Assembly: GCA_017619975.1 (NCBI GenBank)
Contig: JAFZRH010000032.1
Coordinates: forward strand, 1 to 56,541
Source of the DNA: Lachnospiraceae bacterium
GTDB taxonomy: Bacteria > Bacillota > Clostridia > Lachnospirales > Lachnospiraceae
Reading direction: 5' to 3'
DNA length: 56,541 nt
In this document: one piece after another, positions 43,967 to 53,105 of the stretch
Layout: every line of letters starts with the position of its first letter
How positions within the stretch are numbered: the stretch's first letter is position 1
Notes under the pieces: model-generated
Told to the model about the DNA's origin: nothing
Seen by the model: the letters and a program-made list of their open reading frames with translations, nothing else
Databases searched by the model: none
Translations under genes and position numbers: made by a program

Positions 43967-44689
43967 ATGGAACAGAACAATCAGCCCCGCCACATCGCGG
44001 TGATCCTGGACGGCAACGGCCGCTGGGCCAAAAAGAAAGGCGTGCCGCGGGCGATCGGTCACAAGGAAGGCTGCGAGACCTTAAAGCATATCCTGGATAC
44101 CTGCTACTACAAAAAGATCGAGTTTTTCTCGGTTTATGCGTTTTCCACCGAAAACTGGAAGCGCTCTCAGGCGGAAGTGAAGGCCCTGATCCAGCTGATG
44201 CGCTATTACCTGCCGCGGCTGGAAAAACGCTCCATGGAGCGCAACACGAAGGTGCGCATCATCGGCGACATCGGCGGCTTTCCCGAAGACGTGCAGAAGA
44301 TCATGCGGCATTTGATCGAGACGACGGCGGTCAACACCGGCCTCACATTCATCATGGGCTTAAACTACGGCGGCCGCGACGAGCTGCGCCGCGCCATGGT
44401 CAAGCTGGCTCAGCGGGTAAAGGACGGTGAGCTGGAGCCGGAAGAGATCACGGAGGCGATGATCTCCGCCAGTCTGGATACGGCGGACATCCCGGATCCG
44501 GACGTGATCATCCGCACGAGCGGAGAGATGCGCCTGTCCAACTTCATGACCTGGCAGAGCGCCTATTCGGAACTGGAATTCCCGACCGTGCTCTGGCCGG
44601 ATTTTTCTGACGCGGATCTGGAGGAAGCCATCCGTGTTTACAACAGCCGGGATCGGCGTTTCGGCGGGAGGAAAGAGGATGAAGCGTGA
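43967..44689 (+). CDS. uppS: Isoprenyl transferase (undecaprenyl diphosphate synthase)
   Basis: The start at ATG 43967 is set by AAAGAGG, giving 240 residues. It has the cis-prenyltransferase signatures AVILDGNGRWAKKKG (catalytic Asp15), YAFSTENWKR and the C-terminal IRTSGEMRLSNFMTWQSAYSE. It makes the C55 carrier lipid for peptidoglycan. It overlaps cdsA by 11 bp. Confidence 0.95.
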   Translation: MEQNNQPRHIAVILDGNGRWAKKKGVPRAIGHKEGCETLKHILDTCYYKKIEFFSVYAFSTENWKRSQAEVKALIQLMRYYLPRLEKRSMERNTKVRIIGDIGGFPEDVQKIMRHLIETTAVNTGLTFIMGLNYGGRDELRRAMVKLAQRVKDGELEPEEITEAMISASLDTADIPDPDVIIRTSGEMRLSNFMTWQSAYSELEFPTVLWPDFSDADLEEAIRVYNSRDRRFGGRKEDEA

Positions 44690-45488
44690 TTTCTGGATCC
44701 GGCTGCGCAGCAGTATTATCCTGATGGCGGTCACGGTTGCCGGCTTTTACTTCGGCGGCCTCGCCCTCTTTGCGCTGCTCTGCTTCGTGTCGCTGGTCGG
44801 GATCTTTGAGCTTTACCGCGTCTGCGGGATCTGGGGCACGGCGCCGGCCGCGGCCGGCTTCATGGGGGCCTGCCTGTTTCTGGAGGCCGTCTGGCTGGGC
44901 TGGGACAGCTGGCTTTTATTCGTGCTGTTTTTAGGCTTCATCCTGATCCTCGGGACCTACGTGTTTACCTTCCCGCGCTATTCCTTCGCCAAGGCGGCGT
45001 ACAGCCTCTTCGGCATCCTTTATCTGCCGGTGATGCTTTCTTACCTGTACCGCATCCGCGAAATGGAGGAAGGCATCTGGCTGGTCTGGCTGGTCTTCCT
45101 GGCCTCCTGGGGCTGCGATACGATGGCCTACTGCACGGGGATCCTGATCGGGAAGCACAAAATGACGCCCGAGCTGTCTCCGAAAAAGACCTGGGAGGGG
45201 GCCGTCGGCGGCGTGCTTGGCAGCGCTCTTCTGGGCTTTCTGTACGCGCTGATCGTCGGGGAGCATTTGAGCATCCTGGGGCAGCCCCTGCTTTTTACGC
45301 CGCTGCTGTGCGCGGCCGGCAGCATCGTTTCCCAGATCGGCGATCTGGGGGCCTCTGCCATCAAGCGCAGCTTTCAAGTCAAAGATTACGGCAGTCTGAT
45401 CCCGGGGCACGGCGGCATTCTGGACCGCTTCGACTCGGTGATCGTGACGGCGCCGATCCTTTATTATCTGCTGCTTCTGCTTCAGTAG
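44679..45488 (+). CDS. cdsA: Phosphatidate cytidylyltransferase
   Basis: This 269-residue membrane protein has about seven helices. It carries the signature LSPKKTWEGAVGG and the C-terminal IPGHGGILDRFDSVI of CdsA. It makes CDP-diacylglycerol, the precursor of all phospholipids made by CDP-alcohol transferases. The start inside uppS has a GAGGAAAGAGG site. The next gene is rseP; dxr, which commonly sits between them, is absent. Confidence 0.93.
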   Translation: MKRDFWIRLRSSIILMAVTVAGFYFGGLALFALLCFVSLVGIFELYRVCGIWGTAPAAAGFMGACLFLEAVWLGWDSWLLFVLFLGFILILGTYVFTFPRYSFAKAAYSLFGILYLPVMLSYLYRIREMEEGIWLVWLVFLASWGCDTMAYCTGILIGKHKMTPELSPKKTWEGAVGGVLGSALLGFLYALIVGEHLSILGQPLLFTPLLCAAGSIVSQIGDLGASAIKRSFQVKDYGSLIPGHGGILDRFDSVIVTAPILYYLLLLLQ

Positions 45489-45512
45489 AGCGGAAGCATT
45501 CGGGAGTAAAAT

Positions 45513-46826
45513 ATGACGTTTGTAAGTATACTCATTGCGATCGTGGTCTTCAGTCTGCTGGTGCTGTTCCATGAATTCGGCCACTTTATCGTGGCGAAGG
45601 CGGTCGGCATCGGCGTGACGGAGTTTTCGCTGGGCATGGGACCGCGGATCCTGTCTTTTCAGAAAGGCGAGACCCGCTATTCCTGGAAGGCGATCCCCTT
45701 CGGCGGTTCCTGCGCCATGGTAGGAGAGGATGAAGAGGAAACGACCCCCAATTCCTTTAACGCGAAACCGGCCTGGGCCCGCTTTCTGGTCGTCTTTGCC
45801 GGACCGGCCTTCAATGTGATCCTGGCGCTGATCCTTTCCTTCTTCCTGATCGGGAAGGGCGGCATCAATACGGGGACGGTGCATCAGGTCACGTCGGGCA
45901 GTGCCGCCGCCAAAGCGGGGATCACGGCCTGGGAGGATTCGGTGACTTCCATCAACGGCAAAAAGATCGCGATGGGCCGGGACCTGCTCCTGTACACGCT
46001 CTCGCATCCGCTGGACGGTTCGGAAGTGACGGTCGGCCTGAAAAACAAGGCCGGCGAAGAACGGACGGTCACGCTGGATCCGAAGGTCAGCGGCTTCCGC
46101 ATCGGGATCGCTTATACGAACAGTGATGCACCGGCGGCGCTGTCCGGCGTGACGGAAGGCCTTCCGGCGGCAGAAGCCGGTCTTCAGACCGGCGACGTGA
46201 TCACGGCGATCAACGGCAGCGGGATCACCAGCGGCAGCGAAATGGCCGCCTATTTCACGGAGCATCCGATAGACGGCAGCACGCTGGAACTGACGGTGAA
46301 ACGCGGGGAGGAAGTCCTGGATCTGAGCATGACGCCCGAGCCCTACGAGACGAATGATCTGGGCTTTCAGGCATATTATGTTTACGAAGAGTGGGACGGC
46401 AATCTCGGAACCCTTCTCGGCAGCAGTCTGCGGGAAGTGCGCTACTGGCTGTCCTACGTTGTGGTGACGCTTCGGATGCTCTTTACCGGCCAGGTCGGTG
46501 TGAAGGATCTGTCCGGCCCGGTCGGCATCGTTTCCACCATCAGTACGGCGGTGGAGACCGGGGTGCAGAACGGCGGGGCCAAGATCGCATTTATCAACGT
46601 GCTGGAGCTGACGGTGCTTTTAAGCGTCAATCTGGGCGTCATGAATCTGCTGCCCATCCCGGCGCTGGACGGCGGGCGGATCCTGTTCATCCTGTATGAA
46701 CTGATCTTCCGGAAACCGGTGCCGAAAAAGGCGGAGGGGATCGTCCATCTGATCGGTTTTGCGCTGCTGATGCTGCTGATGGTCTTCGTCCTGTTCAACG
46801 ACGTATTGCGGCTGATCCGGGGGTAA
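45513..46826 (+). CDS. rseP: RIP metalloprotease RseP (site-2 protease)
   Basis: This 437-residue protein has the zinc motif HEFGH at residues 20-24 in the first membrane helix and the distal NLLPIPALDGGRIL ligand motif. Two PDZ-like domains lie between them (GSAAAKAGI and GLPAAEAGLQTGDVITAING); many Gram-positive RseP homologues have one. It cuts membrane-embedded substrates such as anti-sigma factors and signal-peptide remnants. The anti-sigma-like membrane protein encoded at 27886 is a conceivable substrate, which is speculation. Confidence 0.93.
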   Translation: MTFVSILIAIVVFSLLVLFHEFGHFIVAKAVGIGVTEFSLGMGPRILSFQKGETRYSWKAIPFGGSCAMVGEDEEETTPNSFNAKPAWARFLVVFAGPAFNVILALILSFFLIGKGGINTGTVHQVTSGSAAAKAGITAWEDSVTSINGKKIAMGRDLLLYTLSHPLDGSEVTVGLKNKAGEERTVTLDPKVSGFRIGIAYTNSDAPAALSGVTEGLPAAEAGLQTGDVITAINGSGITSGSEMAAYFTEHPIDGSTLELTVKRGEEVLDLSMTPEPYETNDLGFQAYYVYEEWDGNLGTLLGSSLREVRYWLSYVVVTLRMLFTGQVGVKDLSGPVGIVSTISTAVETGVQNGGAKIAFINVLELTVLLSVNLGVMNLLPIPALDGGRILFILYELIFRKPVPKKAEGIVHLIGFALLMLLMVFVLFNDVLRLIRG

Positions 46827-47959: not shown

Positions 47960-50900
47960 ATGGCTGACAAGGAAACAGGAAAAACCTTACAGGAGACCAT
48001 GCCCGACCTTCGGACGGTCTCTTTTATTACGGAGAATGCCGACCGGATCATGATCGAAAAGATGACGATGACCCGCAGCCGCGACCGCCTGCGGATCTAT
48101 CTTCACGCGCCTTTCCTGATCCAGAAGAAAGATATCTACGCCATGGAGGCGGCGGTCAAGAAGCAGTACTTCCGCAACAAGCCGGTCAGGGTGGAGGTGC
48201 GGGAACGCTTTCATCTGGCCGATATGACACCGCGCGCAGCCTATCTGGCTTACCGGGAAAGCCTGCTGCTGGAGCTGAAGACAAACAGTCTGTTTGCTTA
48301 CAACCTGTTCCGCGGCGCGGAACCGGAGTTTACCGACAGCGCTCTCATGCTGAAGCTGCCGGACAGTCTGCTGGCCGCGACACGGGGCGAGGAACTGGCC
48401 GAGTATCTGCGGAACGTTTTCCGCGACCGCCTGGGCTTCGACCTCTCCGTCCGCATCAAAAAACAGCTGGTGCAGGCGGCATCGGAGCCGGATGCGGGAC
48501 TGGAGCAGGAGATCGCGCGCGTAACGGCGCTCTACCGGGAGAAGCAGGAAGAAGAACGGGCAAGCCGCGCGGCGGAACAGACCGCGGCGCCGAAGAAAAA
48601 GCACGAAAAGAAGACGAAGCTGACGGCTTCCCGCGGCTTCGGCTATGATTTTGAAGGCGAACCCGTCCCGCTGGATAAGATCGAAGAAGGCATGGGACCG
48701 ATCGTGGTGCAGGGCCAGATCATCGCGCTGGACATGAGAGTCCTGTCGACCGGCAACCTGCTGTACAGCTTCGTTCTGACCGACCGCCGCGACTCCATCC
48801 GCGTCAAGGTCTTTATCAAGCCGGAAGATCAGGAAAATCTGGAAGCGTATATAAAGAAAGATACCTATGTAGCCCTGAAGGCCGAACCGGAAGCCGACCG
48901 CTACGATCATGAACTGACGCTGTCCCACGTCAGCGGCATCCGGCCGGCCGAGGCAGCGGAAAAGAAGGAACGGAAGGATCAGGCACCGGTCAAGCGGGTC
49001 GAACTGCATGCCCATACGCAGATGAGCGAGATGGACGCGTTCACGCATGTGGACGAATATATCGAACGGGCGGCGGAATGGGGCCATAAAGCCGTGGCTG
49101 TTACGGATCACGGGGTGGTCCAGTCCTTCCCGGATGCGTTCCACAAGTGGCAGAGCCTGCGCAAGAAAGGCAAAGACATCAAGATCCTCTACGGCTGCGA
49201 GGGCTATCTGGTGGACGATGCGCCCGGGATGAGCAAAGAAGAGATCCTGCAGGCGCCGACCTATCATATCATCATTCTGGCGAAAAACGAGACGGGACGC
49301 GTCAATCTTTATCGCCTGGTCTCCGAATCGCATCTGAACTATTTCCGGCGCCGGCCGCGCATCCCGCGCAGCCTGCTGACGGAGTGCCGCGAGGGACTGA
49401 TCTTAGGCTCCGCCTGCGAGGCGGGCGAGCTTTACCGGGCGCTGCTCAGAAACGCGTCCGAGGAGGAACTGGCGAAGATCGTCAGCTTTTACGATTATCT
49501 GGAAGTCCAGCCGCTCGGCAACAACGCCTATCTGACCCGGACCGGGCGGAACGGCCGGATCTACACGCAGGCGGAGCTGGAAGGCTTCGTGCGGAAGATC
49601 CTCGAGCTGGGCCGGCAGTTTGCCAAGCCGGTCGCGGCGACCTGCGACGTGCATTTCCTAAATCCGGAGGACGAAGTTTACCGCCGGATCGTCCAAAAGG
49701 GCCAGGGCTTTGCGGACGCGGACAGCCAGCCGCCTCTGTATTTCCGCACGACCGAAGAAATGATGGCGGAGTTTGCCTTCCTGGATTACAGCGAAGCGAA
49801 GCAGATCGTGGTCGACGATCCGAACCGGATCGCGGACTGGTGCGAGGTGATCGAACCGGTGCGGCCGGACAAGTGCCCGCCGAAGATCGAAGGCTCCGAA
49901 GAGGAGCTTCAGAAACTGTGCTACGAAAGAGCGCACGACTGGTACGGCGAGACGCTGCCGGAGCAGGTCTCCGTGCGGCTGGAGAAAGAGCTCAAATCCA
50001 TCATCGGCAACGGCTATGCGGTCATGTATATCATCGCGCAGCGCCTGGTGAAGAAATCCAACGACGACGGCTATCTGGTCGGGTCCCGCGGTTCGGTAGG
50101 CTCCTCGCTGGTGGCGACTTTAAGCGGCATCTCCGAGGTCAATCCGCTGCCGCCGCACTACCGCTGTCCGAAGTGCCGCCACAGCATCTTTGACAACGAA
50201 GAAACGCGGAAAAACGCCGGCGGCGCCGGTGTGGATATGGCGCCGCTTACCTGTCCCGTCTGCGGCGAAGAAATGATCCGCGACGGCTACGACATCCCCT
50301 TCGAAACTTTCCTGGGCTTCAAGGGCGACAAAGAGCCGGATATCGACTTAAACTTCTCCGGCGAGTATCAGAGCAAGGCGCACGAATATACCGAAGTCCT
50401 GTTCGGCAAGGGCTGCACCTTCAAGGCGGGAACCATTACCGGGCTGGCGGACAAGACCGCCTACGGGTATACGTTAAAATACTTTGAAGAGAAGGGAATC
50501 GTAAAGCGCCGCTGCGAGATCGACCGCATTGCGGCGGGCTGCGTGGGCACGCGCCGCACGACCGGCCAGCATCCGGGCGGCATCGTGGTGATGCCGCGGG
50601 GTGAAAATATCTATTCCTTCACCCCGATCCAGCATCCGGCCAACGACGTGAACAGCAACATCATCACGACGCATTTTGATTATCATTCGATCGACCACAA
50701 CCTGCTGAAGCTGGACATCCTGGGACACGACGATCCCACCATGATCCGGCGTCTGGAGGATCTTTTGGGCATCGACATGACCAAGGTGCCGATCAACGAT
50801 CCGGACGTCCTGGCGCTCTTTAAGGGAACGGAATCCCTGGGTATCCGCAGCGAGGATATCGGCGGCTGTCCGCTCGGCACGCTCGGGGTCCCGGAGTTCG

Positions 50901-51793
50901 GGACGGACTTCGCCATGGGCATCGTGCAGGACGCAAAGCCCGAAAGCGTGGCTGACCTGGTCCGTATCGCCGGCATCGCGCACGGCACCGACGTCTGGAA
51001 GGGCAACGTGCAGGATCTGATTGTAAACGGGACGGCTTCCTTAAAGGAATCCATCTGCACGCGAGACGATATCATGCTGTATCTGATCTCGAAAGGAATG
51101 GATCCGGCGCTGTCGTTCAAGATCATGGAAAGCGTCCGGAAAGGAAAAGTCGCGAAGAAGGGCGAACCGAACTGGCCGAACTGGAAAGAACAGCTGATAG
51201 AACATAACGTACCGGACTGGTATATCGGTTCGGCGGAGAAAATCCAGTACATGTTCCCGAAGGCGCACGCGGCCGCCTACGTCATGATGGCGCTGCGCGT
51301 GGCCTACTGCAAGGTCCATTATCCGCTGGAATACTATACGGCGTATTACAGCATCCGCGCGGACGGTTTCGATTACGCGCTGATGTGCCGCGGCCGGGAA
51401 GAACTGGCGAAAAACCTGGAACTGTTCCGCCGCAACAAGGATACACTTTCCGACAAGGAAAAGCTGGTCCTTCGGGATATGCGGCTGGTGGAGGAAATGT
51501 ACGCGAGGGGCTTTGCGTTTACCCCGATCGATATTTACAAAGCCAAAGCAAAACGCTTCCAGATCGTGGACGGAAAGATCATGCCGTCCTTCGTCAGCAT
51601 CGCCGGTCTGGGCGAGCAGGCGGCCGTCAGTCTGGAAGAGGCGGCGGCGGAAGGAAAGTTCCTTTCCCGTGAAGATCTGCTGCAGCGCAGCAAGCTGTCT
51701 TCGACAATGGTGGATACGATGTATCAGCTGGGGATCCTGGGCAATATGGCCGAAAGCAACCAGCTCTCGTTCAGCGATCTTTTGTTTGAATAG
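47960..51793 (+). CDS. polC: DNA polymerase III PolC lacking the internal 3'-5' exonuclease domain
   Basis: This 1,277-residue protein is the PolC replicase by its overall order. It has an N-terminal domain, an OB fold at about 235-330 and a PHP domain beginning VELHAHTQMSEMDA (about 348). The palm active site is KEPDIDLNFSGEYQ (about 794), the zinc-binding cysteines are CPKC and CPVC, and HPGGIVVMPRG is present. In ordinary PolC (about 1,430 residues) a DnaQ-like proofreading exonuclease of about 170-200 residues interrupts PHP after the YGxEAYLVDD strand. Here GCEGYLVDD (about 418) is followed by only a roughly 15-residue linker and then YHIIILAKNETG. No DIETTGL motif occurs anywhere. The frame is continuous. 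Polymerase identity is certain; the exonuclease loss is read directly. Confidence 0.95.
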   Translation: MADKETGKTLQETMPDLRTVSFITENADRIMIEKMTMTRSRDRLRIYLHAPFLIQKKDIYAMEAAVKKQYFRNKPVRVEVRERFHLADMTPRAAYLAYRESLLLELKTNSLFAYNLFRGAEPEFTDSALMLKLPDSLLAATRGEELAEYLRNVFRDRLGFDLSVRIKKQLVQAASEPDAGLEQEIARVTALYREKQEEERASRAAEQTAAPKKKHEKKTKLTASRGFGYDFEGEPVPLDKIEEGMGPIVVQGQIIALDMRVLSTGNLLYSFVLTDRRDSIRVKVFIKPEDQENLEAYIKKDTYVALKAEPEADRYDHELTLSHVSGIRPAEAAEKKERKDQAPVKRVELHAHTQMSEMDAFTHVDEYIERAAEWGHKAVAVTDHGVVQSFPDAFHKWQSLRKKGKDIKILYGCEGYLVDDAPGMSKEEILQAPTYHIIILAKNETGRVNLYRLVSESHLNYFRRRPRIPRSLLTECREGLILGSACEAGELYRALLRNASEEELAKIVSFYDYLEVQPLGNNAYLTRTGRNGRIYTQAELEGFVRKILELGRQFAKPVAATCDVHFLNPEDEVYRRIVQKGQGFADADSQPPLYFRTTEEMMAEFAFLDYSEAKQIVVDDPNRIADWCEVIEPVRPDKCPPKIEGSEEELQKLCYERAHDWYGETLPEQVSVRLEKELKSIIGNGYAVMYIIAQRLVKKSNDDGYLVGSRGSVGSSLVATLSGISEVNPLPPHYRCPKCRHSIFDNEETRKNAGGAGVDMAPLTCPVCGEEMIRDGYDIPFETFLGFKGDKEPDIDLNFSGEYQSKAHEYTEVLFGKGCTFKAGTITGLADKTAYGYTLKYFEEKGIVKRRCEIDRIAAGCVGTRRTTGQHPGGIVVMPRGENIYSFTPIQHPANDVNSNIITTHFDYHSIDHNLLKLDILGHDDPTMIRRLEDLLGIDMTKVPINDPDVLALFKGTESLGIRSEDIGGCPLGTLGVPEFGTDFAMGIVQDAKPESVADLVRIAGIAHGTDVWKGNVQDLIVNGTASLKESICTRDDIMLYLISKGMDPALSFKIMESVRKGKVAKKGEPNWPNWKEQLIEHNVPDWYIGSAEKIQYMFPKAHAAAYVMMALRVAYCKVHYPLEYYTAYYSIRADGFDYALMCRGREELAKNLELFRRNKDTLSDKEKLVLRDMRLVEEMYARGFAFTPIDIYKAKAKRFQIVDGKIMPSFVSIAGLGEQAAVSLEEAAAEGKFLSREDLLQRSKLSSTMVDTMYQLGILGNMAESNQLSFSDLLFE

Positions 51794-52695: not shown

Positions 52696-53070
52696 TTATT
52701 CTTCTACGACAACGGGGGAATCCGGCGCGTTGCGGCGGATGGAATCGATGCCGTTCAGGCAGCTGGCCTTGGCTTTGTAGCTCTCGCCGGTCGCGATAAT
52801 CTCGCCGTTGCGGGCTTTTAAGCGGAAGCGGAATTCACCGGCTTTGTCCTTATAGACTTCGAACTTCGGGTTGGTCACCTTCTCGAAGTTTTCCACGGTC
52901 TGGTCTTCCAGCTTGGCTTCGACGGCGTTCTTGCGGATGCTTTCAATGCCGTTCTTGCAGGCAGCTTCACTGTTGTAGGTCTCGCTGGTCGCGATAACTT
53001 CGCCGTTGCCGGCTTTCAGATTGAAACGAAAACCACCGTTCTTGGTAGGTCCCATCACGAATTTACCCAT
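52696..53070 (-). CDS. DUF1508 / YegP-family protein, two repeats
   Basis: The start at 53070 is set by AAGGAG 8 bp upstream, giving 124 residues. It has two copies of the roughly 50-residue DUF1508 unit. The first includes GGFRFNLKAGNGEVIATSE and ACKNGIESIRKNA; the second includes GEFRFRLKARNGEIIATGE and SCLNGIDSIRRNA. YegP-like proteins are small cytoplasmic proteins of unknown function, often stress-linked. It has its own promoter at 53106-53134. Confidence 0.88.
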   Translation of the reverse strand: MGKFVMGPTKNGGFRFNLKAGNGEVIATSETYNSEAACKNGIESIRKNAVEAKLEDQTVENFEKVTNPKFEVYKDKAGEFRFRLKARNGEIIATGESYKAKASCLNGIDSIRRNAPDSPVVVEE

Positions 53071-53105
53071 AAAATACACTCCTTCTATGGTATTTATTTG
53101 GCTTT

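Follow-up and report, generated by a model that had tools for sequence, protein, structure and literature searches.

The 56,541-nucleotide stretch of DNA analysed here (the window; contig JAFZRH010000032.1 of a Lachnospiraceae bacterium, assembly GCA_017619975.1) carries a polC gene whose product lacks the DnaQ-like exonuclease domain (Exo) usually inserted into the PHP domain (Table 1). The genome is a draft of 82 contigs, 94.45% complete with 3.13% contamination, and encodes one PolC and one DnaE. Judging from their translations, the ORFs upstream of polC are presumably uppS, cdsA, rseP and ispG. The dxr gene does not lie between cdsA and rseP (44634-46826): the dxr match of this genome is on contig C76, and in four relatives (G092, G022, G034 and G098) dxr shares a contig with polC, at a distance of no more than about 10 kb. 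On the minus strand (52696-53079), a 127-aa protein made of two similar halves is encoded, which we take to be YegP/DUF1508-like.

Table 1. Position of polC and of the regions and motifs of its product within the window
Feature	Coordinates	Strand	Remarks
polC, Exo-less PolC-type DNA polymerase III α subunit	47960..51793	+	single ORF, 1277 aa
PolC N-terminal region, residues 1-225	47960..48634	+	PF14480 above, PF11490 under cut-off
OB fold, residues 249-321	48704..48922	+	PF01336 under cut-off
PHP domain, first half, residues 346-420; ligands H350, H352, D359, H384, E414	48995..49219	+	
14-residue linker, residues 421-434, at the usual place of the ~190-residue DnaQ-like Exo	49220..49261	+	
PHP domain, second half, residues 435-600; ligands H436, C486, D563, H565	49262..49759	+	
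Polymerase active-site motif D794-I-D796	50339..50347	+	third carboxylate D919 at 50714-50716
C-terminal clamp-binding motif, QLSFS, residues 1268-1272	51761..51775	+	consensus QLSLF

The length of the protein given in the initial annotation agrees with that of the ORF. Both NCBIfam equivalogs for PolC match it above cut-off (NF001688 with 1415.2 bits, cut-off 873; TIGR01405 with 1283.3 bits, cut-off 1043.45), and Pfam places PHP, Pol3, finger and HhH domains in that order (PF02811, PF07733, PF17657 and PF14579, all above cut-off). N-terminally, PF14480 also exceeds its threshold (33.9 bits, cut-off 22), while PF11490 (22.8, cut-off 26.3) and PF01336 (19.1, cut-off 27) stay below theirs and lie at the right place before PHP. 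The arrangement by which a PolC is recognised, with NI/NII and OB regions ahead of PHP, is thus present in the window protein. The polymerase carboxylates D794, D796 and D919 are invariant in the seven genus PolCs aligned and also align with those of other PolCs; after known C-family enzymes, we take them to be the catalytic residues. In a phmmer search, residues 234-1271 align with the Geobacillus PolC 3f2b. A second full-length PolC, a possibility raised in the initial annotation, was not found in the window genome at an E-value of 0.001.

The PHP domain had been described as uninterrupted, and Pfam indeed reports it as one stretch (residues 348-510). Between GCEGYLVDD and YHIIILAKNE we counted 14 residues, close to the linker of about 15 noted before. 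The closest Exo-containing relative (PolC L019 of genome G022) has 206 residues between VDD and YH, a difference of 192, and its insert holds DIETTG and the remainder of the DnaQ-like domain. No DxETTG motif was found in the window PolC, and neither RNase_T nor Exo families are among its Pfam matches up to E=1, which bears out the claim that the internal domain and its DIETTG-type motif are missing. The same Pfam search revealed no Exo relocated within the protein, and searches of the window genome with RNase_T and a DnaQ model revealed none relocated elsewhere. Since the end of the linker, SKEEILQAPTYH, resembles the flank downstream of Exo in the G022 PolC, DSEAIKKMPTYH, the cut looks clean, with 192 residues apparently removed in frame. 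Residues 345-690 were modelled with AlphaFold from 11 sequences (mean pLDDT 87.9, about 90 in the linker). A short helix flanked by two strands bridges the gap in this model, whose top structural hit is 3f2b. According to the available text of PMC5636811, the same PHP loop has a length of 18 residues in the Taq enzyme and of 9 in E. coli DnaE, and it is the loop in which the DEDD exonuclease of Geobacillus PolC sits.

We next consider how this architecture is distributed, based on a set of 61 genomes (the window genome and 60 relatives). In 16 of 16 genus genomes examined, the PolC match runs through the junction; in one of them (G011), polC is split over two contigs, with the break further downstream than the junction. 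In 21 other genomes of the family the match breaks at about residue 424, and three genomes of the same order show a DnaE-like match only. Named genomes were scanned as well, and the best 80 of 449 loci comprise these proteins again, in MAGs that bear the label Lachnospiraceae and often come from ruminant guts, together with further Exo-less relatives. The loss of Exo from the window PolC is confirmed as real.

For a family-wide view, one genome per genus was surveyed, and a PolC match was obtained in 147 of 150; long frames were presumed to contain Exo, and frames cut by contig ends were left unassigned. Six short frames were fetched, of which those of G092, G083, G173 and G185 and the second copy of G119 are Exo-less, while that of G156 has Exo. 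The family set comprises 120 rows after removal of 16 with an identical C-terminal core; the Exo-containing L031 was not parsed, and three Exo-containing genes are present twice (L019/L046, L024/L045, L030/L047). A first tree, built from the columns after the Exo site of 119 PolCs (L048 excluded), requires four changes of Exo state, all forced by well-supported branches: clade A, consisting of the window genus plus L063, L092 and L093, with G022 as its nearest Exo-containing relative; clade B (22 rows); L067; and L068, a long branch whose placement is unsure. L068 belongs to genome G119, which holds two PolCs (L069/L068), a 1524-aa Exo-containing frame and a divergent Exo-less frame of 1059 aa, in which PHP starts near residue 131.

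At the level of the class, PolC was found in 138 of 148 genomes. Eighty of these 138 were fetched, 40 of them chosen for their short frame, and 77 were parsed; the 17 Exo-less PolCs among them, spread across eight further family codes, are therefore not a frequency sample. A joint tree of 188 clostridial PolCs, 60 of them Exo-less, implies 11 switches between the Exo-containing and the Exo-less state, 8 or more of them forced; this count does not separate gain from loss (L030, L045, L046, L047, L048, L224, L226, L255 and L272 are excluded from this tree). The window genus is nested among Exo-containing relatives and has thus lost Exo rather than never had it. We propose that Exo would have been removed cleanly and in frame in an ancestor of this ruminant-gut Lachnospiraceae lineage, leaving a PolC that would still be functional. 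Three PolCs of family code f63 (L217, L219 and L223, from G325, G272 and G300), not parsed in the class set and absent from its tree, carry a shortened insert at the Exo site that lacks DIETTG and other DEDD residues, with PHP and polymerase residues intact. This insert looks like a dead Exo remnant and is a possible intermediate of loss.

If Exo is gone, which site edits? The initial annotation had noted that the PHP metal motif is kept, and we found all nine ligands (HHDHEHCDH) intact in the window PolC and in all 60 Exo-less rows, 43 of 43 in the family set and 17 of 17 in the class set. Ligand 8 is Asp563 in the window PolC and aligns with Asn in Geobacillus PolC. In the available text of PMC5636811, M. 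tuberculosis (Mtb) DnaE1 is described to proofread with a nine-ligand trinuclear zinc PHP site, and this activity is gone when D226 is changed to N. By its position in the nonad, D563 should be the equivalent of D226, and the window PolC has the full ligand set of a PHP-proofreading C-family polymerase, giving it a putative editing activity. In three genus pairs, dN/dS is 0.05-0.11 for PHP, 0.04-0.09 for the polymerase part and 0.04-0.14 for the whole PolC, showing that PolC and its PHP domain are under strong purifying selection.

These data lead us to the following model. Removal of Exo would restore a short loop between the PHP strands, as in DnaE polymerases, and would leave the zinc-type PHP site as the sole 3′-5′ exonuclease site built into PolC. 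Mismatched primer ends would be edited by this site, or be handed over to DnaE1 in the same cell and edited by its PHP site in the way known from mycobacterial DnaE1, or both; mismatch repair would clear remaining errors. Based on sequence comparison, we consider it probable that a functional PolC lost Exo and that the PHP sites of PolC and/or DnaE1 now proofread. Ligand conservation does not prove editing, however: fidelity may simply be lower, and conservation of PHP may be structural. The complete nonad is also kept in 74 of 77 Exo-containing rows of the family set (the exceptions being L048, an odd frame; L065, with one ligand changed; and L130, which is cut), so that Exo-less and Exo-containing rows do not differ in ligand conservation and there is no sign that PHP gained importance after the loss. 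In the automatic alignment, three Exo-containing PolCs (L224, L226 and L065) seem to have a disrupted set of PHP ligands, as opposed to none of the 60 Exo-less rows. Of the three sources of fidelity initially put forward, namely a DnaQ protein in trans, the PHP domain or relaxed fidelity, the second is the best supported, by its ligands in 60 of 60 Exo-less rows and by purifying selection, and the transfer of proofreading to the PHP site(s) is the most likely outcome.

The single DnaE of the window genome, for which the initial annotation suggested a search, has an intact PHP nonad and clamp motif, and on these two features we judged it to belong to the DnaE1 group. The PHP nonad of DnaE1 is intact in 37 of 37 genomes examined, and its clamp motif ends in F or L in the same number (37/37). 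Three genomes (G083, G185 and G026) gave no DnaE1 match at E 1e-40; these are drafts of 90%, 68% and 86% completeness, and the match is probably missing together with the sequence.

A further feature concerns the C-terminus of PolC. According to the available text of PMC3919608, 98% of PolCs carry the consensus clamp motif QLSLF, in which positions 1, 4 and 5 matter most. The window tail, QLSFS, does not match the consensus over these positions. Position 5 is F in none of the 15 readable genus rows (S, T or E in nine, L or M in six). A polar or small residue occupies it in 29 of 59 Exo-less versus 1 of 113 Exo-containing rows with a readable C-terminus, a count from which 16 of the 188 rows were dropped because their C-terminus is cut or cannot be read, and which uses a polar/hydrophobic split set after the sequences had been seen. 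F is kept in the Exo-containing sister PolC (L019), in the basal Exo-less members of clade A (L063, L092 and L093) and also in L064 and L155 of clade B. As F thus persists in part of each Exo-less clade, the clamp motif seems to have eroded after Exo was lost; for clade B, parsimony on the 188-row tree takes the kept F as a reversal instead.

PolC may therefore have been partly demoted to a shorter, clamp-poor task, with DnaE1 performing most of the processive, proofread synthesis and with Exo lost before the clamp motif eroded. The skew at position 5, the lack of F throughout the readable genus rows as opposed to the sister and basal clade-A PolCs, the motif's near-universality, the F- or L-ended motif of DnaE1 and the question asked in the available text of PMC3919608, whether Clostridia normally replicate with DnaE1, all point this way. 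Corrected for descent, however, the association between Exo loss and clamp change is only suggestive. Parsimony gives four gains of a polar residue, three of them in Exo-less lineages, which make up 26% of branch length, and three reversals; our own binomial for three of four gains is about 0.06, and an independent-pairs sign test with four pairs is powerless. Outside the family, 13 of 17 Exo-less PolCs keep F and two have Y; on the strength of the 13, we reject the idea that losing Exo generally alters the clamp motif. The ratio of PolC to DnaE1 branch length is 0.90 within the genus versus 0.68 on Exo-containing branches, but branchwise tests for an acceleration of PolC after Exo loss did not reach significance (p 0.31 for clade A and 0.26 for clade B). 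Strong purifying selection on PolC also continues, and the L or M present in six of the 15 genus rows may still bind the clamp. We regard this demotion as possible but rather doubtful; PolC may have ceded part of its processive role to DnaE1.

Much less likely is that a separate DEDDh exonuclease, either a DnaQ or an ERI/KapD-like protein, proofreads in trans. The window genome does encode one RNase_T protein (365 aa, C19:27203-27658), which we take to be ERI/KapD-like, and five of the 16 genus genomes (G002, G005, G009, G013 and G014) possess a second, full-length RNase_T gene whose size fits DnaQ; the other 11 have no other full-length RNase_T match. However, the 365-aa protein is a weak match to the DnaQ model TIGR00573, scoring 22 bits against a cut-off of 71.5, and because homologs with 38-44% identity over more than 300 residues are present in four of four Exo-containing relatives checked (G022, G018, G034 and G027), it was not gained with the loss of Exo. 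DnaQ-size stand-alone genes are likewise frequent in Exo-containing relatives, and RNase_T and TIGR00573 searches revealed no canonical stand-alone DnaQ in the 94.45% complete window genome. The suggestion of a DnaQ in trans thus finds no support in this species, whose sole RNase_T protein is shared with relatives that have Exo. The stand-alone DnaQ-like proteins of G005, G009, G013 and G014 are 39-40% identical to the best-scoring PolC Exo; by pairwise scores, this is the Exo of the sister G022 in one of the four, and Exo splitting off into a separate gene was rejected.

Clade B also speaks against a DEDDh enzyme in trans. Of its 22 rows, 14 genomes were searched for RNase_T, and 12 of these gave no RNase_T (DEDDh) match; the same 12 were negative with TIGR00573 (G083, G191-G198 and G200-G202). 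Editing in clade B should therefore come from another fold.

An equally improbable explanation is that the lineage replicates with relaxed fidelity, as a constitutive weak mutator. The main known proofreader is gone, and a compensating gene was not found in 11 of 16 genus genomes. Yet MutS_I matches were obtained in all 40 genomes (only a partial one in G007), the MutS of the window genome being intact, both polymerases retain their PHP ligands, and the at least eight changes of Exo state together with the loss in whole clades speak against a heavy cost. Finally, that the gap is an assembly deletion or comes from a mis-binned contig, as a draft genome might allow, is hardly conceivable, because sixteen separately assembled species show one junction, which excludes chance and misassembly and answers the concern about an assembly deletion, and because the same C-terminal cores recur on named contigs of MAGs from several projects, which probably coincide with the assemblies of the genus set.

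Two Lachnospiraceae clades may be dismantling PolC stepwise, first Exo and then the clamp tail, while DnaE1 would keep its PHP site and clamp motif and become the main proofreading and processive replicase; most of clade B would then be devoid of any DEDDh exonuclease, with all replicative editing done by PHP sites. We offer this broader scenario tentatively, as a shade less likely still than the demotion of PolC itself. The Exo-less lineages, some with an altered clamp tail and no DEDDh exonuclease detected, amount to natural deletion experiments on two questions: can a genome be proofread by PHP sites alone, and which polymerase carries the fork? As the role of PolC may differ between gut Clostridia, they might also be relevant to PolC-directed antibiotics.

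The initial annotation implied that an Exo-less PolC is new, a claim reduced by its publication in 2013 (PMC3919608). In its available text, Exo-less PolCs make up 6% of PolCs, are confined to Clostridia and Negativicutes except for a single additional copy in Thermotogae, and account for 16% in PolC + DnaE1 systems, and the roles of both polymerases in the clostridial PolC + DnaE1 system are given as unknown. A 2026 survey (PMC12926913) states, in the text available, that Clostridia mostly have three apparently active proofreaders and that in Pol III α subunits PHP, not the DnaQ proofreader, is inactivated. The dead-looking Exo of L217, L219 and L223, with its intact PHP, stands beside this statement. 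Among open-licence papers, supplements aside, we found none combining an Exo-less PolC with the clamp motif and Lachnospiraceae, or dnaQ with the rumen.

The window protein has an uninterrupted PHP domain within a PolC, in a genome with DnaE1, and lacks the Exo-in-PHP hallmark of a typical PolC; it belongs with the published Exo-less PolCs. Like those of Clostridia and Negativicutes described by Timinskas et al. (PMC3919608, available text), it has no Exo insertion, a DnaE1 partner and a conserved PHP metal site. Whereas the clamp consensus holds there for nearly all PolCs, it is altered in every readable genus row here, and we counted many separate changes of Exo state and a clade mostly without an RNase_T match. 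The architecture was already known; new are the number of Exo-state changes, the clade mostly without DEDDh and the fact that these lineages also have a changed clamp tail. With the B. subtilis-type PolC of PolC + DnaE3 systems, the window PolC shares the order of N-terminal region, OB, PHP, polymerase, finger and HhH, but it differs in the absence of Exo, the presence of the PHP Asp, the DnaE1 partner and the altered clamp tail. The Geobacillus kaustophilus PolC structure 3f2b, the best match in both structure and sequence, has a short loop at the Exo site as well; this deletion is man-made, Exo having been removed for crystallisation (PMC12592400, available text), and its PHP Asp position is Asn, unlike in the window PolC. 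Mtb DnaE1 (PMC5636811, available text), which proofreads through a nine-ligand PHP site without a DEDD exonuclease, provides the mechanism proposed here for the window PolC; it is a DnaE1-type enzyme with measured activity, whereas the window PolC is known from its sequence.
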